From: a bacterium
GTDB lineage: Bacteria; SM23-31; JAUVVT01
Reading direction: 5' to 3'
DNA length: 12,360 nucleotides
Assembly: GCA_030616165.1 (NCBI GenBank)
Contig: JAUWXV010000099.1
Span: 1-12,360, forward strand
Shown here: piece by piece, positions 2,916-11,177 of the stretch
How the letters are laid out: the number at the start of each line of letters is the position of its first letter
Position numbering within the stretch: the stretch's first letter is position 1
Position numbers and translations under genes: made by a program
Notes under the pieces: generated by a model
The model's database searches: none
What the model was told of the DNA's origin: nothing
Seen by the model: only the letters and a program-made list of their open reading frames with translations

Positions 2916-3770
2916 CTACCTGAGCAGCACCATTCTCTTAGTCTGGGTGAATGTCCCAGCCGTCAATCGATAGATGTAGATGCCACTACTTGCCAGCCGT
3001 CCTTGATTATCCCTGCCTTTCCAGATAACCTGATAATAACCTGCAGGCTGGAAGTTATTCACAATGGTCTGCACCTCTTGGCCAATCAGGTTGTAAATTA
3101 TCAAGCGGACCTGAATTCCTTCAGGAAGGCAGTAAGAAATCTTCGTCTCTGGATTGAAGGGATTAGGATAATTTTGATCTAAATAGAACTTGTCTGGTAC
3201 TCCGGAGGAGACTGCTTTTCCAAGTGCATTTGCATCAGAGGCCTTAGCCATAGCCTTAGCCTTCTTAGCCTTAGGCTTCTTAGCCTTAGCCTTTATAATT
3301 ACGCAGTCCCCCCCGTGTATCCAGGTACCATCAAGTAGACGACTACCATCCGAAAGAGATAACATCACTGTGTCCCCGTCACACACAGGGCCAATAGCCT
3401 CCACAATTTCCTGTTTGTCAAATTTAAGAACAAGATCAGGAAATCCATCGCGACCCTTCTTAGTGGTGCAATTACACTCCCCATCTTCAACAAGGGTGGC
3501 GACATCTTTAATACTCCATCTTATTGGCGCAACACCTTCCAGTCTTATAGTACTCACATTTATCGAGTCAACATTTAAGAAGAAACCACCCACAGTCCCC
3601 CCAAGTATCGCTACAGGCAGAACACCCTTAACACCCTTACTTTTAACCTTGAGGGGATTCGGACAGGATTTGGGTTTGATGTCTAATTTCACTTGACAGG
3701 GAAAAGATAATAAGTACCCTGCAATAATAAATACGATAAATATGACTATAATTAACAAGACTCGTTTCAT
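2916..3770 (-). CDS. Secreted protein with type IX (Por-type) C-terminal sorting tail
   Basis: The 284-residue protein starts at an ATG with an excellent Shine-Dalgarno (AAAGGAGGT, minus strand, 3776-3784). Residues ~1-25 are a signal peptide. Residues ~27-160 form a domain seen in many secreted proteins of environmental bacteria, recognisable by 'VKLDIKPKSCPNPL', 'LPVAILGG', 'RLEGVAPIRWS' and 'DGFPDLVLKFD'; its biochemical role is not established to my knowledge. Residues ~160-188 are a Lys/Ala-rich low-complexity linker. Residues ~196-284 are a FlgD-like/type IX sorting domain: 'YLDQNYPNPFNPETKISY', 'VRLIIYNLIGQEV', 'GIYIYRLTAG', 'KRMVLLR'. The product is expected to cross the outer membrane and stay on the surface or be released. 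Cysteines at 25, 36, 99, 101, 130 and 156 in and before the domain may form disulfides. Confidence 0.85.
   Translation of the reverse strand: MKRVLLIIVIFIVFIIAGYLLSFPCQVKLDIKPKSCPNPLKVKSKGVKGVLPVAILGGTVGGFFLNVDSINVSTIRLEGVAPIRWSIKDVATLVEDGECNCTTKKGRDGFPDLVLKFDKQEIVEAIGPVCDGDTVMLSLSDGSRLLDGTWIHGGDCVIIKAKAKKPKAKKAKAMAKASDANALGKAVSSGVPDKFYLDQNYPNPFNPETKISYCLPEGIQVRLIIYNLIGQEVQTIVNNFQPAGYYQVIWKGRDNQGRLASSGIYIYRLTAGTFTQTKRMVLLR
3238..3296. repeat. TTAGCC-type microsatellite encoding the Lys/Ala linker
   Basis: Imperfect hexamer iterations of 'ttagcc', with variants 'ttaggc' and 'ttcttagcc', encode the alternating Lys-Ala linker (residues ~160-177) of the secreted protein. Replication slippage here would lengthen or shorten the linker in steps of two residues without breaking the frame. 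Confidence 0.7.
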
Positions 3771-3815: not shown

Positions 3816-4087
3816 ACTTTTTCTATATCACGAATAAAGATAGTAAGTAAACACAATTACTATAGGAGCAAGTTCGCTTTTCTTATGATTTTCAGTGCTT
3901 ATATTCAGCCTACTCCAGGCATTCAAATATACAAAATCATCACATTGGGTTTGAGTCAGCATAAGGTTTCGATTGATTCATTTGTACTTTGTGCTTGTGC
4001 TACAATATTGATTTCTTCAAATTCAGAAAGCATATCAACTAAGCTTACTTTTATCACCTTAGAATCATCTTAAATAAATACATTCAT
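3816..4087 (-). pseudogene. Response-regulator receiver domain, decayed pseudogene
   Basis: On the minus strand from ATG 4087, read through stops, the sequence gives 'MNVFI*DDSKVIKVSLVDML', then 'SEFEEINIVAQAQSTNESIE', 'TLC*LKPNVMILYI*MPGVG', '*I*ALKIIRKAN'. After a frame change near 3870 it continues 'APIVIVFTYYLYS*YRKS'. This follows the receiver fold: the acidic pair DD after strand 1, 'KPNVMILxIxMPG' where the phospho-acceptor Asp is now Tyr, 'GxxALKIIR', and 'PIVIVFT' for strand 4. There are at least five in-frame stops before the frameshift and another after it. No DNA-binding output domain is visible beyond ~3816. The plus-strand open frame at 3885-4073 is only its antisense shadow. 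A LuxR/NarL-type origin is a guess. Confidence 0.8.
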
Positions 4088-4480
4088 TACCACTTATGCC
4101 TTTTATATCAGGTAATTTTATCGGATATGAAGGCTATTTTTGTCTTGATTACTTAAATTGTCGATAAAAATTTTCGGAGAATTAACCGATACTTGTACTA
4201 ATATATTTACTAAAATCATTTAAAAAAATAGGACAAATTCTGTTTTTTTTGTAATATTTTTTCTCTGTTTGTTGTAAGTTTTTGTCTTACATGTAAAGAA
4301 GGGATATTTCTGAAGGGGTATTATTAGAGAATACTTGTGAGCATTTAAATCTGTGAGGAGAATATAAAAATAGTTAAAAAAATATAAGTATTATTAAAAA
4401 ATTTGAAGAACGAACGATAAATAAGAAAAACAAACTGATATTTGAAATATTTAAATCCCGAATGATTGCCACTTTTAATA
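4088..4480. other. AT-rich stretch with no gene seen
   Basis: I looked at both strands and see no coding remnant comparable to the receiver pseudogene next door. The stretch has long A and T runs and no strong hairpin. It may contain the decayed promoter of the pseudogene, and it lies just outside the candidate island boundary. Confidence 0.5.
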
Positions 4481-4481
4481 C

Positions 4482-4534
4482 AAAAAAAGCTGAAATGCAA
4501 GCATTTATTTTAAAAATACTTAAATTCCAGCTTT
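4482..4534 (-). terminator. Intrinsic terminator following the tRNA 3' fragment
   Basis: On the minus strand, arms 4524-4534 and 4486-4496 (AAAGCTGGAAT with ATTTCAGCTTT) pair over 11 bp including one G-U. The loop is 27 bases and the stem runs into seven U. It starts 3 bases after the tRNA 3' fragment, the usual position of a tRNA gene's own terminator. In the island model this is the original terminator of the disrupted tRNA-Glu gene. Confidence 0.75.
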
Positions 4535-4537
4535 CTT

Positions 4538-4563
4538 GTAGCGCATAGGGGATTTGAACCCCT
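4538..4563 (-). repeat. tRNA-Glu 3'-end fragment, candidate att site (direct repeat of 11105-11130)
   Basis: The 26 bp match the 3' end of the intact tRNA-Glu (T-arm, acceptor strand, discriminator and one base more) at 25 of 26 positions. The single change is in the T-loop (TTCAAAT instead of TTCGAAT). Similarity stops sharply at the 5' edge of the T-stem, and no D-arm or anticodon arm follows. Orientation is the same as in the intact gene. This is what is left behind when a tyrosine-recombinase element integrates into a tRNA gene. Confidence 0.8.
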
Positions 4564-4626
4564 ATCTTGACCAGTTCATATCTCCAATAAAAACAATATA
4601 TCTATTTGATATTACGAAATTTAGAT

Positions 4627-4860
4627 GTTTGATTTAGTTAGGTTTGTTTTGATATATTTTGGTATGTTTTGACATAAAAATGTCCCAAATGCGTCCCAGT
4701 TTGGAAAGGCTTATTTGTCATGAGTTTCGAAGATTTTTTCTATTTTTCGAAAATTGAAAATTGATTATTATTGGATTTGCATTGATATGGTTTTATATAG
4801 TTTGATATGGGAAATCGAAGGAAATCTAAATAAATCGAAGTAAATCAAACTATTTCAAAC
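4627..4860. repeat. Helically phased short repeats next to the att-like fragment
   Basis: Two adjacent 20 bp units at 4641-4660 and 4661-4680 share GGTWTGTTTTGAYATA. TTGATATGG occurs at 4782 and 4802 (20 bp apart), and AAATCGAAG at 4812 and 4832 (20 bp apart). Five consecutive 10-mers at 4811-4860 follow the pattern kAAATCnAAn. GTTTGATTT at 4627 appears inverted as AAATCAAAC at 4842. GTCCCA occurs at 4682 and 4693. Boxes spaced by one or two helical turns on both strands look like a multi-site protein-binding region, for example integrase arm sites; this function is inferred. Confidence 0.65.
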
Positions 4861-4863
4861 AAT

Positions 4864-5208
4864 AATTTATGGTGTAAAAAGCATCAATCAAAGAAATTAA
4901 TGAAAAGTTAGCATATATGAAAAAATAATGCCTTGTTACCGGCATTAGAAGCCTATAATATTGATATTTCTAAACGTAATTATTATAAAGTTTTGGGTTT
5001 GGAAATTGAAATAATAAATCGTTCACCAAAATGTGATTGGTTCGAGTCCAGGGCGGGGAATAAGTCACTAATACTCAGCGCACCAATTGTTAGAGATTTT
5101 ATAAAGTCTGGCAAGAATTGGTATGTTATAATAAGCATTTATGTGACGAGATTTACACTCTATCTTACTGACCAATCTTCTACATTGCGCAATTTTTACA
5201 ATACTAAT
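4864..5208. other. Stretch without a supported gene inside the island edge
   Basis: A plus-strand open frame (4933-5370) runs through here, but its second half is only the antisense of the sorting-tail pseudogene. Its first half ('ALLPALEAYNIDISKRNYYK') has no family I recognise and no ribosome binding site. A short tract 'ggttcgagtcc' near 5040 resembles a T-loop but has no tRNA around it. An integrase gene would be expected about here; I cannot read one. Confidence 0.5.
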
Positions 5209-5523
5209 TTACTTAATAAGCGTCATTTTTTTAATAGCAGAAAACTCTCCTGCTTGAAGGTGGAACAAATAGACACCAGAACTGACCAATTTACCTGCTT
5301 CACTTTTTCCGTCCCATTCGAAATCGTAATTTCCTGCAGGCATAGTATCAGATACAAGTGTCCTAACTAAAGAGCCATTAATACTATAAATTTTTAGGAT
5401 TACATTTGAAGATTGAGGTAACTGGAACCGAATCGATGTTGTTGGATTGAAATGATTTGGAAAGTTCTGCTCTAATACATATGAATCTGGTATTATGTCC
5501 TCAATATAGTGTATAATAAACAA
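5209..5523 (-). pseudogene. Orphan type IX sorting domain (C-terminal remnant of a secreted protein)
   Basis: Only ~95 residues of a FlgD-like/type IX sorting domain remain: 'IPDSYVLEQNFPNHFNPTTS', 'VILKIYSINGSLVRTLV', 'MPAGNYDFEWDGKSEAGKLV', 'SSGVYLFHLQAGEFSAIKKM'. The usual NPFNP reads NHFNP. There is no signal peptide and no cargo domain, an in-frame stop lies a few codons upstream of the TTG at 5523, and there is no Shine-Dalgarno. The tail is otherwise intact, so truncation (deletion or recombination at the island edge) was probably recent. It could not reach the periplasm as it stands. Confidence 0.8.
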
Positions 5524-5726
5524 ATAATTTTTTAGTTAATTATTAGTTATTTGAATAAATAATAATACAGTATCTCCTAATAACTAAAATTAAAAAGATA
5601 AAATTACTACTCTTAATAAAAATGGTTTGGTTTTTCAAGTTACCTTAACTAGCTTTTAAATCAAAGATTTGTGAAAATCTGTAATTTTTTCAAAAGCATT
5701 TATTTTATAATTAAAATAAATTTCAC

Positions 5727-5755
5727 TTGACTTATACTGTAAACTTGTTTATATT
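5727..5755 (+). promoter_or_regulatory. Sigma-70-type promoter with internal inverted repeat
   Basis: TTGACT (5727-5732), a 17 bp spacer and TATATT (5750-5755) give a near-consensus promoter whose start should fall ~35 bp before the ATG at 5799. The spacer ends in TAAAC-TT-GTTTA (5740-5751), which overlaps the first bases of the -10. A protein bound there would block the promoter. The same half-site recurs at 6707-6725. Confidence 0.7.
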
Positions 5756-5798
5756 AGTATCAAAATAATTTTTTAAACATAAAACAAAGGACAAAACA

Positions 5799-6395
5799 AT
5801 GGACAAAACAATTTTAACACCGGAAGAGAGCTTTGATATAATTACTAAAGCTATCTCAAACTTTAAAATGAATTATAAGGAACATGCAAAAATGTTTCTC
5901 CTATGGGGCTGGATGCTGAGTATTGCCAGCTTTTCTAATTTCATTATCTTAAAGATTTTAGACCATAAAGAAGCATACGAACTTTCGGGGATATTTAGTC
6001 TTGGTAATTGGTTTTTGTTTATCTTAAGTACATTTATAATCCTGTTTTTTATGGAGCGGAAAATAAATAAGGATAAGAAAATATATAGCCATTTAGAAAG
6101 TTATATCAATAAACTATGGGCAGTAAGCGGCATTTCAATGTTTGTAGCAACATTCCTTAGTTTTAAATTGGGAATAGTTCCACCAACAATACTTTTGTTA
6201 ATTACCGGTATTGCAACTACAATTACCGGGCTGGTTATTAAGTTTAAACCTTTAATAATTGGGGGTATAGCATTTTTTATATTCAGTATAGCTACAACAT
6301 TTGTATCAAATCACAACACAGCATTAATTACCGGCACGGCTATCATATGTGGTTATCTGATACCAGGATATTTTTTAAAATCAGCAAAAGAATAG
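5799..6395 (+). CDS. Six-helix membrane protein paired with a winged-helix regulator
   Basis: This 198-residue protein has a soluble N-terminus (residues 1-30, 'TPEESFDIITKAISNFK') and about six membrane helices (~32-53, 65-85, 107-125, 128-148, 151-169, 173-193). AAAGGA at 5786-5791 is a well-placed ribosome binding site, and a strong promoter lies upstream. The stop is four bases before the start of a winged-helix DNA-binding protein, so the two are co-transcribed and probably co-translated. From memory, this pair (uncharacterised membrane protein plus HTH_34-type regulator) recurs in Bacteroidota-related genomes. By analogy with membrane-protein/regulator pairs it may sense an envelope signal or control the regulator's activity; nothing in the sequence proves this. 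Confidence 0.85.
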   Translation: MDKTILTPEESFDIITKAISNFKMNYKEHAKMFLLWGWMLSIASFSNFIILKILDHKEAYELSGIFSLGNWFLFILSTFIILFFMERKINKDKKIYSHLESYINKLWAVSGISMFVATFLSFKLGIVPPTILLLITGIATTITGLVIKFKPLIIGGIAFFIFSIATTFVSNHNTALITGTAIICGYLIPGYFLKSAKE

Positions 6396-6399
6396 TATT

Positions 6400-6690
6400 A
6401 TGTACAAAGATTTAGATCCTTTATTACACTCGCAACTCCGGTTGTCAATCGTCTCTACTTTAATAACGGTCGATGAAGCAAATTTTAATTTCATCAAAGA
6501 GACCACTAAGGCTACATCGGGCAATATAAGTATTCAAATAAAGAAATTGCAGGAAGCAGGATATATTAAAGTAGAAAAATCTTTTAAAAATAATTATCCA
6601 AATACGACTTTGTCAATTACAGATAAAGGTGTTGAGGCATTTGAAACCTATGTCAATAATTTGAAAAAATATATTAATCCCGGGAAATAA
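6400..6690 (+). CDS. Winged-helix transcriptional regulator (HTH_34/MarR-like)
   Basis: The 96-residue protein is a single winged-helix domain of the PF13601 type: 'LHSQLRLSIVSTLI' (helix 1), 'NFNFIKETTKATSGNISIQI' with the recognition helix at ~39-52, 'LQEAGYIKVEKSF' leading into the wing, and 'TLSITDKGVEAFETYV' closing it. It has no ligand domain, so control must come from a partner, most simply the membrane protein encoded just upstream. Its probable targets are the inverted repeat in its own promoter (5740-5751) and the similar one before the lipoprotein gene (6707-6725). A T9 tract follows the stop, but no clean stem precedes it, so read-through into the lipoprotein gene is possible. Confidence 0.88.
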   Translation: MYKDLDPLLHSQLRLSIVSTLITVDEANFNFIKETTKATSGNISIQIKKLQEAGYIKVEKSFKNNYPNTTLSITDKGVEAFETYVNNLKKYINPGK

Positions 6691-6706
6691 TTTTTTTTTA
6701 CATATT

Positions 6707-6725
6707 TAGTTTACATTTTAAACTA
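6707..6725. promoter_or_regulatory. Candidate operator: inverted repeat before the lipoprotein gene
   Basis: TAGTTTACATTTTAAACTA is a perfect 7 bp inverted repeat with a 5 bp spacer, lying five bases before the Shine-Dalgarno (6730-6737) of the 6742 gene. The half-site TAAAC/GTTTA is the same as in the promoter of the upstream regulator operon. Binding by the winged-helix protein is inferred. As RNA it would form only a weak hairpin. Confidence 0.45.
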
Positions 6726-6741
6726 CTTTAAGGAGGTAACT

Positions 6742-8472
6742 ATGAAAAATTCAATTCTTATTTTTATGATTCTCATCCTGACAGTAACAGGATGCAATGC
6801 TCAGGAAAATCCAAAAAGACCAGCTGTGGCAGGTCAAAATAAAAATGAAGAGCATGTTGATAATTCAATTCTTGTTTTCTATCGTCAGTATAGTTCATTT
6901 ACCGATCCGGGAGAATATGAATATTTATATAAAAATCTTCCTGATTCTTTACCAGAGCTTTGCAGTTTAATAAAATCCCAGTTTATTCATCCCTATGCTG
7001 ATTTGCCTAAGTATCGTGAACTAATCCCCAGAGAAAGATGGAATGAAGGATTCAAGTATCCAACAGTTAAATCACAACTGGAGGGACTTCTATCCTATGA
7101 CTCATCGGGTTTAGTGAGAGATCGGAAACCTGAAGATAGATTGGTACTGGCTTGCCGGGATTATGCAATCTTACTGGCATCAATACTTAAATATCGCGGT
7201 ATTCCCGCCAGGGTCCGTTACGGGCACGCTACGTATTTAATCCCTGATTTTCATGCGAGTCATGTCATCTGTGAAGTATGGAATGAAAATGACAACCGAT
7301 GGATGCTTGTGGATCCAAGCACGGAAATGATTGATTTCAGCAGAGAAAAATTTGACTTTAGTCATGATGTCTGGTTAAAAATGCAACAAAAGGAAATAGA
7401 TCCCAACTTATTTGGGATACCTGGCAAATATACCGGACTGGTTTCGATAATATCGAAAGTTTTTGCTGATCTGGCATCGATACTGGGAACCGAATATACA
7501 GCTTATCAGTATGCGCCCATGGTGGATTATGCTTTTGAAAATGACAATCAATTGACTTCGGAACATATAGAAATTCTGAACAGAATAAGTGAATTAATGA
7601 AGTCAATTGATGCTGAAAATATCCGCATATTGCAAAAAATTTATAATAATAATCCTCAAATTCAAATTACAAAATCATTTGAACTTAATACGACACATAC
7701 TGAGAATAACATCAGAAATAGAGAGTCTAAAAAAAATAATTCCAATACTGAAAATAACAATCAAATTAGAGTTTCTTCAAAAAATAAACCCATTATTGAA
7801 TTTGTAGATATACCGGCAGGAACATTCACAATGGGAAGTCCTTCATCTGAAAAGGGAAGAAAAGATGATGAAATACAACATAAAGTTACACTGAACGCTT
7901 TCAAAATGAGTAAATATACTGTAACCTTTGAGCAATATGATTTATTTTGTGAAGCCACAGGAAAAACTAAACCGAGAGGACGTAAACGGGGAAATCTTCC
8001 AGTTTTATGGGTTTCTTGGTATGATGCCAATGCATTTGCAGAATGGATGGGCTGCAGGTTACCAACAGAAGCTGAGTGGGAATACGCAGCTCGAGCAAAT
8101 ACAACTGCTCCCTTTTATACAGGAGATTGCTTGACATCTGATCAAGCTAATTTCAATGGAAGAAAACCTTATACAAATTGTGATAAAAGTGAAAACAGAA
8201 AGAAACTATTACCTGTTGGTAGTTTTCCACCGAATGCATTTGGTTTATACGATATGCATGGTAATATTTGGGAATGGTGCAATGATTGGTATGGTGAATA
8301 TGACATAAATGATAAATTGAATCCACAGGGACCAGATAAAGGAACGCGAAAAGTTGATCGTGGTGGTGCCTGGTATGATCCTGCTTGGAGATGTCGGTCA
8401 GCCTATCGTGCAGGAGGTGATCCACCAGGTAACAGAGGTTCAGGAATTAGTTTTCGAATAGTGAAACTTTAA
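6742..8472 (+). CDS. Lipoprotein fusing a transglutaminase-like and an FGE/SUMF1-like domain
   Basis: The 576-residue protein starts after a strong AAGGAGGT. Residues 1-18 are a lipoprotein signal ('LILTVTGC', lipid Cys18). Residues ~110-200 are a transglutaminase-like fold with the expected triad: Cys138 in 'LVLACRDYAILLASILKYRG', His171/174 in 'FHASHVICEVWNE' and Asp191 in 'RWMLVDPS'. Residues ~315-350 are an Asn-rich linker. Residues ~351-576 are an FGE-sulfatase/SUMF1 domain: 'FVDIPAGTFTMGS', 'SKYTVTFEQYDLFCE', 'CRLPTEAEWEYAARA', 'NAFGLYDMHGNIWEWCNDWY', 'RGGAWYDPAWRCRSAYR', 'GISFRIVKL'. The copper-binding cysteine pair of true formylglycine-generating enzyme is not evident (only one Cys in that C-terminal stretch), so it is more likely a binding module or another activity. 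It should act in the periplasm or at the outer membrane, as a protease-, amidase- or crosslinking-type enzyme. Confidence 0.88.
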   Translation: MKNSILIFMILILTVTGCNAQENPKRPAVAGQNKNEEHVDNSILVFYRQYSSFTDPGEYEYLYKNLPDSLPELCSLIKSQFIHPYADLPKYRELIPRERWNEGFKYPTVKSQLEGLLSYDSSGLVRDRKPEDRLVLACRDYAILLASILKYRGIPARVRYGHATYLIPDFHASHVICEVWNENDNRWMLVDPSTEMIDFSREKFDFSHDVWLKMQQKEIDPNLFGIPGKYTGLVSIISKVFADLASILGTEYTAYQYAPMVDYAFENDNQLTSEHIEILNRISELMKSIDAENIRILQKIYNNNPQIQITKSFELNTTHTENNIRNRESKKNNSNTENNNQIRVSSKNKPIIEFVDIPAGTFTMGSPSSEKGRKDDEIQHKVTLNAFKMSKYTVTFEQYDLFCEATGKTKPRGRKRGNLPVLWVSWYDANAFAEWMGCRLPTEAEWEYAARANTTAPFYTGDCLTSDQANFNGRKPYTNCDKSENRKKLLPVGSFPPNAFGLYDMHGNIWEWCNDWYGEYDINDKLNPQGPDKGTRKVDRGGAWYDPAWRCRSAYRAGGDPPGNRGSGISFRIVKL

Positions 8473-8473
8473 T

Positions 8474-8920
8474 GAGGGGATAAAGAAGTTAGACGATGAG
8501 CTTTCTGAGAAAGGTAAAGAACTTGACGGACATAAGAACATAACCAGTATCAAAGGAATCGGAGATAAGAGTGGAGCGATTTTGCTAAGTGTTATCGGAA
8601 ATATAAATGACTTTGAAAGTGAGAAGAAGTTAGCAGCTTACTTTGGCATAGTTCCCAGGGTAAGCATCTCAAATGAAACTTTACATTCGAGTAGGATCAC
8701 AAAACTTGGAAGCAAACTTGGACGAACAACACTTGTTCAATGTACTTTAATCGCAAAAAGATATTCACCTTATCTGGAAAATTTCTACCAACGAATAAGA
8801 GCTAAAAAAGGAACTGGAAAAGCAATTATCGCAACAGCTAAAAAACTTTTAGGAATAATTTATAAAACACTAAAAAATAATTGGGAATTTGAAGATTTCC
8901 CAAACTTTGTAATAAAATAA
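8474..8920 (+). pseudogene. IS110-family transposase, C-terminal fragment
   Basis: The frame is readable from 8474 and starts one base after the stop of the preceding gene: 'KKLDDELSEKGKELDGHKNI', 'TSIKGIGDKSGAILLSVIGN', 'FESEKKLAAYFGIVPRVSIS', 'HSSRITKLGSKLGRTTLVQC', 'AKKGTGKAIIATAKKLLGII'. This is the linker helix plus the Transposase_20 (PF02371) domain, with the Ser-containing 'HSSRITKxG' motif kept. The N-terminal DEDD RuvC-like catalytic domain and the left end, where IS110-group bridge RNA lies, are missing, so it cannot move by itself. The frame of the remaining part is undamaged, so truncation is recent or the fragment is under selection. An ATG at 8582 could start a 112-residue product. 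Confidence 0.88.
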
Positions 8921-8926
8921 TAAATA

Positions 8927-8950
8927 AGTATTAATTCTAAAATTAATACT
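8927..8950. repeat. Perfect 10 bp hairpin after the transposase fragment
   Basis: AGTATTAATT (8927-8936) and AATTAATACT (8941-8950) are perfect complements around a CTAA loop, seven bases past the transposase stop. There is no T tract on the plus strand. It may be the subterminal structure of the IS110 right end or a weak terminator shielding the next gene. Confidence 0.6.
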
Positions 8951-8982
8951 CGGAGTGGAACTTTTTATCATAGGAGGATATA

Positions 8983-10215
8983 ATGAACAACAATTTAATA
9001 ACAGCCAATCCGGTTTCTATTTCAGATCGTATAGTATCCCTGGACGTTCTGAGGGGATTTGCCATACTTGGAATGTTGATAATAAATATCCAGAGTTTTT
9101 CCATGATTGAAGCGGCATATATAAATCCCACTGCTTACGGTGACTTGACAGGCATTAACAAATTGGTTTGGATGTTAAGTCATGTGTTTGCCGACCTAAA
9201 GTTTATTTCAATATTTTCTATTTTATTCGGTGCGGGTATTGTCCTATTCACCGACAGAGTTGAGCTGAAAGGGCTAAGTCCCCGGGGTTTGCATTACCGC
9301 AGGATATTCTGGCTGTTTATTATCGGTATGACGCATGCTTATTTATTCTGGTACGGTGATATTTTAGTGTCGTATAGTCTTTGCGGATTACTTGCATATT
9401 TATTGAGGAAAACGTCACCAAAGATATTGCTGACTATAGGTCTTATTATTTTCTCCGTGGCATCGGCAATATTTTTGTTTTCGGGGTGGTCAATGCAGTT
9501 CTGGCCTCCTGAATCTATAGAGGGATTACTGGAAGGCTGGAAACCCAATGCAGGTATTATTGCCGAGGAAGTAGGAGTTTACCAAGGGAGCTGGTTTGAG
9601 CAGATGGGAAAACGCGCTTATTCTGCAGTTATGTTTCAGACATTTTTCTTTCTGTCCTTTTTTGGATGGCGCGCAGGAGGATTGATAATTACCGGTATGG
9701 CGTTGTATAAACTGGGTGTGCTGACTACCCAGAGATCCAACCGCTTTTATGCTGTTGGAATGGCTGCGGGATTTTTGGTAGGGATGCCGTTGATAATTTA
9801 CGGGATTAATTTTAATTTCTCCGGCGGGTGGGTGGTCGAGAAATCAATGTTCACGGGGTCGCAGTTTAATTACTGGGGCAGCCTGTTCGTTGCTTTCGGA
9901 TATATCTGTATGATTATGCTTCTTTGTAAAAGGTTTTCTTCTGGTGCGATAAAAAGCGCCTTTGCTGCTACAGGACGTATGGCCTTGACGAATTATCTTC
10001 TTCAGACTTTACTGTGTACGTCAATATTTTACGGGCATGGATTCGGATTATTCGGAGAAGTGGAGCGGTATGTCCAGATTCTGATTGTTTTCAGCATATG
10101 GGTTGTGCAGTTGGTAATATCACCTTTATGGCTGAGGAGTTTCAGGTTTGGCCCCGCAGAATGGCTGTGGCGATCTTTAACGTACTGGAAAATACAGCCG
10201 ATGCAGAACGGGTGA
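8983..10215 (+). CDS. DUF418-family (YeiB-like) polytopic membrane protein
   Basis: The 410-residue protein starts after AGGAGG (8972-8977). The N-terminal signature 'RIVSLDVLRGFAILGMLIIN' (residues ~16-35) and the C-terminal 'GRMALTNYLLQT' (~331-342) are diagnostic of the DUF418 family (PF04235). About ten membrane helices are spread over the whole length, and the size matches full-length family members. DUF418/YeiB proteins are inner-membrane and poorly characterised; a transport or acyl-transfer role has been suggested from fold similarity but is not shown here. GC and codon use are noticeably higher than in both neighbours, so it may have a different origin from the rest of the island. 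It reads away from the IS110 remnant and is followed by a long hairpin. Confidence 0.9.
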   Translation: MNNNLITANPVSISDRIVSLDVLRGFAILGMLIINIQSFSMIEAAYINPTAYGDLTGINKLVWMLSHVFADLKFISIFSILFGAGIVLFTDRVELKGLSPRGLHYRRIFWLFIIGMTHAYLFWYGDILVSYSLCGLLAYLLRKTSPKILLTIGLIIFSVASAIFLFSGWSMQFWPPESIEGLLEGWKPNAGIIAEEVGVYQGSWFEQMGKRAYSAVMFQTFFFLSFFGWRAGGLIITGMALYKLGVLTTQRSNRFYAVGMAAGFLVGMPLIIYGINFNFSGGWVVEKSMFTGSQFNYWGSLFVAFGYICMIMLLCKRFSSGAIKSAFAATGRMALTNYLLQTLLCTSIFYGHGFGLFGEVERYVQILIVFSIWVVQLVISPLWLRSFRFGPAEWLWRSLTYWKIQPMQNG

Positions 10216-10224
10216 TTATTTAAG

Positions 10225-10255
10225 TTGTTACTTTCTTTACTTAAAGAAGTAACAA
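10225..10255. terminator. Hairpin after the DUF418 gene
   Basis: Arms TTGTTACTT (10225-10233) and AAGTAACAA (10247-10255) pair perfectly, extended by CTTT/AAAG with one bulged T and an ACTT loop. It lies nine bases past the DUF418 stop. The following plus-strand sequence is A-rich (aaagaaac) rather than T-rich, so it is not a textbook intrinsic terminator; mRNA 3'-end protection is equally possible. Confidence 0.55.
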
Positions 10256-10273
10256 AAGAAACTTTTAAACAAT

Positions 10274-10316
10274 ATCTGATTTCTCTCCCAGCCTAAGACG
10301 GGGAGAGAAATCAGAT
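10274..10316. repeat. Perfect 16 bp inverted repeat
   Basis: ATCTGATTTCTCTCCC (10274-10289) and its exact complement (10301-10316) flank an 11-base loop (agcctaagacg). No T tract follows on either strand. A hairpin this long and error-free in an otherwise non-coding gap suggests recent arrival or selection, for example a mobile palindromic element, an IS end or a bidirectional insulator. Confidence 0.8.
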
Positions 10317-10459
10317 GTGGATAAGCTTACCCGCCTACGGCGTGTGTAAATATGGAGAAACGTTTATCCGGTATAATAAGAATTGTATGTGGAACTGCCG
10401 TGAGGCGGTACGGACACTTTTTAAGATTGGAACTTTACTATATAAGTGAGGATAAAAAA

Positions 10460-10858
10460 ATGGTTTATTGGATTAGCTTGATTCCGGGGGCAATTGCGGG
10501 ATTTGCGTTAACATGGATAACAGCAGCGGCAATTAAAAAGGAACAGATTAAATTCGGTGATTACAGCATTAATAAAGCAAGAATATATGCTGGTGTTATG
10601 TTTATTTTTAGTACATTTTTATTTGGTCCTTTTGGCATGTATATGTATTCTCATTATATTATTAATGAAGGTGCAGATTTTTCGTTAAGCATAACTATTC
10701 TGGTATTGATAGGAATTGTATTAACTATCCCAAAATATAAAGAATTCTGGAAATCTTATTTATTAATGTCATTTTTATTTATTTTTGCTCTTGGGTGGTT
10801 TTTACCATCTTTTCATCTTCTATGTTGTATATATTATATAAAAAGTCCTTTCAAATAA
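10460..10858 (+). CDS. Small four-helix membrane protein, unknown
   Basis: The frame is open from 10352, but the first 36 codons look non-membrane and have no ribosome site. I prefer the ATG at 10460, preceded by GTGAGGAT and beginning 'MVYWISLIPGAIAGFALTWI'. The resulting 132-residue protein has about four membrane helices (~4-24, 41-66, 74-91, 99-125) and short polar loops. I do not recognise the family. It is the last gene of the island, followed by ~200 bp of AT-rich sequence and then the tRNA terminator. Being all-hydrophobic and AT-rich, it could be a chance frame, but the continuous helices and the start context favour a gene. Confidence 0.55.
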   Translation: MVYWISLIPGAIAGFALTWITAAAIKKEQIKFGDYSINKARIYAGVMFIFSTFLFGPFGMYMYSHYIINEGADFSLSITILVLIGIVLTIPKYKEFWKSYLLMSFLFIFALGWFLPSFHLLCCIYYIKSPFK

Positions 10859-11059
10859 ACAGAATTTTATTTGTTTTATTAAATTAGAATGGAAAAATAT
10901 TGCAAGAATTTAACTGTTCAAGAATATATATAAATAGAGAGGTATCTATCAACTAATAATCAGGAACAATTAGGGGAGTATAAAAGCGAAATATATTTAT
11001 AAGAATTAAACCATAAAGAGTTGTGGGGAATAGCATGGGGAATAAATAATATTAAACAT

Positions 11060-11092
11060 AAAAAAAGGACTTAAATCTTAACCTAAGCCCTT
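11060..11092 (-). terminator. Intrinsic terminator of tRNA-Glu
   Basis: On the minus strand, 11084-11092 (AAGGGCTTA) pairs with 11065-11073 (TAAGTCCTT) over 9 bp including one G-U, and the stem runs into seven U. It starts 13 bases after the tRNA 3' end. Its sequence is unrelated to the terminator behind the 4538 fragment, as expected if one belongs to the island and one to the original gene. Confidence 0.8.
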
Positions 11093-11105
11093 GTATTCAT
11101 TAGAG

Positions 11106-11177
11106 TAGCGCATAGGGGATTCGAACCCCTGTTACCGGCGTGAGAGGCCGGCGTCCTAACCCCTAGACGAATGCGCC
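11106..11177 (-). tRNA. tRNA-Glu (anticodon CTC)
   Basis: The minus strand gives a full cloverleaf: acceptor GGCGCAT/ATGCGCT (first pair G-U wobble), D-arm 'GTCTAGGGGTTAGGAC' as typical of tRNA-Glu, anticodon stem CCGGC/GCCGG with loop CTCTCAC (anticodon CTC, codon GAG), and T-arm AGGGG-TTCGAAT-CCCCT. The discriminator is A, and CCA is not encoded. Its 3' end doubles as the proposed att site. Confidence 0.95.

Follow-up and report, generated by a model that had tools for sequence, protein, structure and literature searches.

The window, meaning the whole 12,360-nucleotide stretch of DNA analysed here, contains an intact tRNA-Glu gene together with a displaced piece of the gene that lies 6.5 kb away and points the same way. 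The window thus holds a tRNA-Glu island. An initial annotation of the DNA had placed a set of short repeats beside an att-like site, and this setting is borne out: the 26-nt 3' end of tRNA-Glu (11105–11177) is repeated at 4538–4563 with one mismatch, followed by a terminator-like hairpin. The features of the locus are listed below.

4476..4537, minus strand: terminator-like hairpin beyond the relic (fold z −4.5 for 4470–4600, reached by 0 of 200 shuffles)
4538..4563, minus strand: outer piece of the tRNA-Glu relic, matching the intact gene at 25 of 26 bases over the acceptor, T-stem and loop of its 3' end
4564..4934, no strand: 371-bp insert inside the tRNA-Glu relic, holding all three box arrays; tRNA pieces abut both ends
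4627..4675, plus strand: array A, five GTTTGATWT boxes in 10-bp phase at 4627, 4637, 4647, 4657 and 4667
4683..4778, no strand: inter-array spacer, with predicted curvature among the highest of the window and 76% identity to C143:12112–12207
4770..4808, plus strand: array B, four GTTTGATWT boxes in 10-bp phase at 4770, 4780, 4790 and 4800
4812..4860, minus strand: array C, five GTTTGATWT boxes in 10-bp phase at 4812, 4822, 4832, 4842 and 4852
4935..4953, minus strand: second relic piece, GTTACCGGCATTAGAAGCC, aligning 16/19 with the part of tRNA-Glu that runs from the variable loop to the anticodon arm
5109..5125, plus strand: degenerate copy of the genome's TGGCAAGAATTGGCAAG att box with two mismatches
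11105..11177, minus strand: intact tRNA-Glu (CTC), found by ARAGORN and forming the island's proximal end

The split tRNA-Glu relic and its insert

Attachment sites of tRNA-targeting tyrosine-recombinase islands are recognised by an intact tRNA gene and a displaced fragment in the same orientation, and both are present here, at 11105–11177 and at 4538–4563 (with 4935–4953). The second piece of the relic resumes at the tRNA base immediately after the first, with a score that was reached by 0 of 1000 tRNA shuffles, and the relic is therefore split exactly between two adjacent bases. The hairpin beyond the outer piece is probably the original downstream flank of the tRNA. No second copy of the core is present where the insert meets the second tRNA piece, so the element has either been rearranged or represents another kind of insertion. 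At the gathering score, Rfam returned nothing but the intact tRNA, and a lax threshold added one weak miRNA match near the region. No box array was seen by eye near the proximal side at 11105.

The relative of the inter-array spacer on contig C143 carries neither arrays nor a tRNA fragment. There it lies immediately upstream, abutting the start codon of a gene that by eye resembles Nramp-type transporters. Within the island, positions 8582–8920 hold a remnant of an IS110-family transposase (Transposase_20). Positions 5037–5059, TTGGTTCGAGTCCAGGGCGGGGA, resemble the T-arm and acceptor end of a tRNA; no other place in the genome matches this stretch as a source tRNA at three mismatches.

Box arrays in 10-bp phase

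The initial annotation described several different words recurring at one or two helical turns. All of them are variants of a single degenerate box, GTTTGATWT, which is present in 14 copies and forms three arrays of 10-bp phase (five and four boxes forward, five reverse), with array C opposing array B across a 3-bp gap. The quoted repeats themselves are in place: TTGATATGG occurs at 4783 and 4803 and AAATCGAAG at 4812 and 4832, in both cases at +20, and GGTTTGTTTTGATATA and GGTATGTTTTGACATA are found at 4641 and 4661, respectively. Boxes lie on both strands, as illustrated by GTTTGATTT at 4627 (+) and 4842 (−). Four of the five 10-mers assigned to the pattern kAAATCnAAn fit it fully, and the fifth, ATTTCAAAC, does so imperfectly. 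That all bases of each box face one side of the helix was an overstatement, as the box-to-box spacing is 10.0 bp, not 10.5 bp, and one box almost fills a helical turn.

The consensus was taken from these very sequences, which leaves autocorrelation as the sole unbiased test of the boxes. The lag-10 self-identity of 4627–4860 is 0.522, compared with 0.307 in dinucleotide shuffles (z 7.1), and was reached by 0 of 2000 shuffles. At lag 20 the z value is 4.9, and at lags 9, 11, 12, 19, 21 and 22 the signal is near background. When 80-bp segments were compared across the 12.36 kb, the lag-10 maximum was located at 4781 with 47 of 70 matches (shuffle mean 32.7), a maximum reached by 0 of 300 shuffles of the whole window. 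Array A on its own has a weaker lag-10 signal (p = 0.011). The curvature of the region was estimated by a wedge model: 120-bp segments starting at 4661–4681 are predicted to rank with the most strongly curved in the window, and the predicted bend of 4770–4866 equals that of the most bent 1% of its own shuffles. The IHF consensus has no match in the region.

Searches for the box set and for an integrase were extended beyond the locus. For the TTTGATWT set (three boxes, up to three mismatches), the genome contains only one low-complexity match besides this locus, and the same array is absent at two mismatches from five genomes of the same class. TTTGATWT boxes are likewise absent from the fetched integrase flanks of the genome, and neither a second arm nor any further att site of the element family was found to have them. 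At the DNA level, no relatives were found in the other 59 genomes searched, and searches of phage and plasmid DNA gave matches at chance level. In viral contigs, three TTTKATWT boxes gave at least 120 stretches; among the matches listed, most are low-complexity repeats and one has an integrase-like ORF. Three TTTGAYAT boxes gave one match there, a short tandem between two genes without an integrase. The spacer and TTTGATTTAG patterns had no match in viral contigs, and no relative of the integrase on contig C106 (see below) was confirmed in them. Phage_integrase was found neither on the contig of the window nor in a Pfam search of ten window proteins. In Paenibacillus macquariensis (L229, 4771–4798), the array TTTGATATAATTTGATATAATTTGATAT adjoins several ORFs resembling tyrosine recombinases.

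Phased boxes at other tRNA-linked islands of the genome

The genome comprises 343 contigs, is 90% complete and has 13 Phage_integrase matches. The sequence TGGCAAGAATTGGCAAG consists of two boxes exactly 10 bp apart and has 21 matches in the genome at up to two mismatches, 11 of them exact; a reversed-pattern control gave none. It is carried at at least 14 places, ten of which lie beside an integrase/tRNA pair or approximately 105–131 bp from a displaced tRNA half.

Four of these sites adjoin integrase/tRNA pairs, on contigs C106 (Ala), C127 (Arg), C150 (Met) and C94 (Pro). Those on C106, C127 and C150 are related to one another and full-length, two of these being 56% identical to the first, and the one on C94 is partial. 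The C106 integrase has an HTH_17 gene on its upstream side, and the upstream stretches on C127 and C150 look alike by eye. The arrangement extends to a sister genus of the same family (G001), in which CGGCAAGAATTGGCAAGG is located between the integrase end and tRNA-Met. On C150 (L005) and C127 (L007), TGGCAAGAATTGGCAAG lies within the integrase frame and encodes the C-terminus ARIGKV; in L006 it lies just past the integrase stop codon.

Six sites (L261, L262, L264, L265, L271 and L278) are found approximately 105–131 bp from a displaced tRNA half. These loci, on contigs C4, C25, C69, C293 and C90, share a similar flank, in most cases AACTGCGTATGGCTGCTG...TTAACACCAAAAG. Opposed GCCAC boxes with a spacing of approximately 9 bp occur on the other strand in L262, L264 and L265. 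The tRNA-Met relic of L261 is also split, within the T-loop, by a 30-bp GC-rich, repeat-like stretch, TCCTCCGTAGGCGGATCTGCCTTCGGCGGA. As in the window, the TGGCAAGAATTGGCAAG att ends have exact 10-bp tandems near tRNA genes or displaced halves, some with opposed boxes. However, they differ from the window arrays in box sequence and in having only two forward boxes.

Autocorrelation was also run on stretches fetched from this genome. Inside displaced tRNA fragments the mean lag-10 z was 3.0, for a set of six that includes the window's own insert (z 6.7), which is therefore not an independent parallel, and four loci (L261, L262, L264 and L265) found via exact TGGCAAGAATTGGCAAG, itself a source of lag-10 matches. 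Outside the fragments the mean was 1.9 (six stretches), and at the flanks of intact tRNAs it was 0.25 (3') and 0.26 (5'). More independent support comes from the outside value and from where the sites lie relative to tRNAs. Within the outside set, only L264 (z 3.0) and L265 (z 3.5) stand clearly above their own shuffles. On the outer side of the L264 Ala fragment, an array of TTTTAGTATATTTTGTTATATTTT and then GGCACATATTGGGCACA is similar to one in the window, TTTTGATATATTTTGGTATGTTTT and then GTCCCAAATGCGTCCCA, at 83% over the first 24 bp; since this stretch is AT-rich, the resemblance is a lead and not proof. Among 33 intact-tRNA flanks, two gave lag-10 z values of 4.6 and 2.9, namely the 3' flanks of L016 (tRNA-Val, C112) and L042 (tRNA-Pro, C312), respectively. 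Both carry TTTTA/TATTTT-type arrays in 10-bp phase approximately 60–170 bp downstream.

The attachment-site reading and its alternatives

The locus combines phased boxes, a split tRNA-Glu relic and an intact tRNA-Glu, and phased boxes occur at other tRNA-linked islands of the genome. The boxes are probably the relic attachment-site arm, in the form of an arm-type and/or excisionase-binding array, of a tyrosine-recombinase element that used tRNA-Glu. Because other helix-phased arrays are present at the genome's tRNA-inserted islands, the 371-bp insert is most likely a relic docking platform for insertion and excision proteins. No cognate integrase was found, so that membership of the insert among such attachment sites is inferred. 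The element would no longer be autonomous, since the interval from 4564 to 11104 yielded no integrase. Several observations speak against this reading: the box set recurs neither in the genome, apart from the low-complexity match, nor at the integrase flanks examined; the 14 boxes outnumber the few arm sites of lambda-type attachment sites; similar 10-bp GTTTGA arrays occur in Bacteroidota mostly away from tRNAs; the second tRNA piece is joined with no second core copy; and the spacer's relative on C143 lacks both arrays and a tRNA fragment.

The arm-type sites of lambda (P'1-P'2-P'3) and its relatives likewise consist of short direct repeats approximately 10 bp apart, on both strands and around a bent spacer, and the window too has boxes that recur with the helical period close to the core. 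In attP, attL and attR, the boxes likewise are separated by tens to hundreds of bp from the core, which lies in the 3' part of a tRNA. In contrast to the lambda arm sites, the window has 14 boxes in three arrays rather than a handful, no integrase gene, and an insert within a split tRNA relic.

A second comparison is offered by winged-helix proteins that form filaments. RdfS occupies attP with one protomer per 10 bp (PMC11963761), and the structurally similar BldC forms filaments on direct repeats (PMC5859096). The window has direct repeats at the corresponding interval of approximately 9–10 bp per protomer. RdfS acts at an attP, and in the present genome a HTH_17 gene lies upstream of one integrase. 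The subsites of BldC, AATTNNNNC, are spaced at 9 bp (PMC5859096), whereas the TTTGATWT boxes of the window are spaced at 10 bp and no wHTH gene is tied to them.

On the attachment-site reading, each box would bind one protomer, either of the arm-binding domain of an integrase or of a HTH_17 excisionase of the RdfS/BldC type. The latter would polymerise head to tail with approximately one protomer per turn. With arrays A and B forward and array C reverse around a curved spacer, the DNA could fold into an insertion/excision complex. Both the binding of a protein and the identity of the binder are presumed in this scheme.

The initial annotation had suggested an arm-type region for an integrase supplied in trans. 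The att setting and the phased boxes at other tRNA-associated islands speak for the arm-type part of this reading, and its expectation of recurrence at other att sites holds for the architecture; the exact box set does not recur. Supply of an integrase in trans would be hypothetical, as the window has no integrase and the fetched integrase flanks of the genome lack these boxes.

The main rival, which we regard as unlikely, is that the arrays are a 10-bp GTTTGA minisatellite, similar to those of Bacteroidota, that has drifted, with opposed blocks that could form a hairpin and an incidental tRNA setting. In approximately 85,000 species genomes, three exact in-phase TTTGAYAT boxes were found in 40 stretches. 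Many of these belong to Bacteroidota, and gene ends and spacers are their usual positions. The Bacteroidota arrays (L205, L210, L215, L217, L221 and L224) have the same period and a near-identical box; in some (L210, L217, L221 and L224) a forward block is followed by an inverted one, and TTCAAACTATTTCAAACAA of L224 is close to window positions 4846–4865. They look like ordinary intergenic minisatellites and lie mostly away from tRNAs. They consist of near-perfect tandem units in unrelated places, with several arrays in at least one of the genomes, and unlike the window they show no link to tRNA relics or integrases. Predicted RNA folds of 4765–4866 on the minus strand (z −2.8) and of 4620–4870 (z −3.0) would suit a hairpin, but such scores rise from opposed boxes alone. 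A minisatellite would also be expected in several unrelated spacers, whereas the genome has this locus and the one low-complexity match, and the five same-class genomes lack the array. Furthermore, the insertion point falls precisely within a tRNA relic, and phased boxes are also present at other att ends of the genome. An association of GTTTGA arrays with four-helix-bundle genes (PF05635) was set aside, an array being present at 4 of 30 loci. In L237 and L250, such genes have 10-bp TTTGA arrays on both sides, and both genomes carry GTTTGA minisatellites.

It is improbable that the 371-bp insert is a small non-autonomous, MITE-like cassette in the tRNA-Glu relic, with the arrays serving as sites for a transposase or integrase in trans. 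The insertion is exact between two neighbouring tRNA bases, and a stretch of the insert is 76% identical to another place in the genome. However, only one full copy exists in the genome, even at E values up to 10, and neither a terminal inverted repeat (by eye) nor a clear target duplication is present. We are equally sceptical of the idea that the insert, with its three long phased arrays around a bent spacer, is a mobile, integrase-less attachment module which enters tRNA genes via recombinases acting in trans and forms an unusually long, 14-protomer nucleoprotein filament.

An operator for a filament-forming wHTH regulator of the BldC/AlpA type, concerned with transcription and not recombination, is quite improbable. 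BldC and RdfS do coat direct repeats with approximately one protomer per turn, and L189 of genome G342 has a TTTGATAT/TTTGATTT array immediately upstream of a gene recognised, by eye only, as coding for an AlpA-like HTH protein. In the window, however, no intact gene starts beside the arrays. They contain no ORF of at least 60 aa and have no adjacent cognate wHTH gene; the nearest such ORFs start at 4933, without a Pfam match, and end at 4073. Promoter-like sites are no commoner than in shuffles.

The origin-like site also proposed in the initial annotation, in the form of a replication origin with iterons, would account for 20-bp direct repeats within AT-rich DNA but is not supported and highly improbable, as an exact DnaA box is absent within 1 kb (nearest at 3055) and the Pfam search of ten window proteins gave neither a Rep nor any other replication protein.

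Read as a relic attachment-site arm, the locus indicates that phased direct repeats can flag such sites once the integrase gene has been lost. Through the analysis, a family of tRNA islands came to light in a little-studied genome, and its arm box is directly searchable. The 14-box array would be a good substrate for asking whether the 10-bp spacing is set by filaments of an integrase or of an excisionase.
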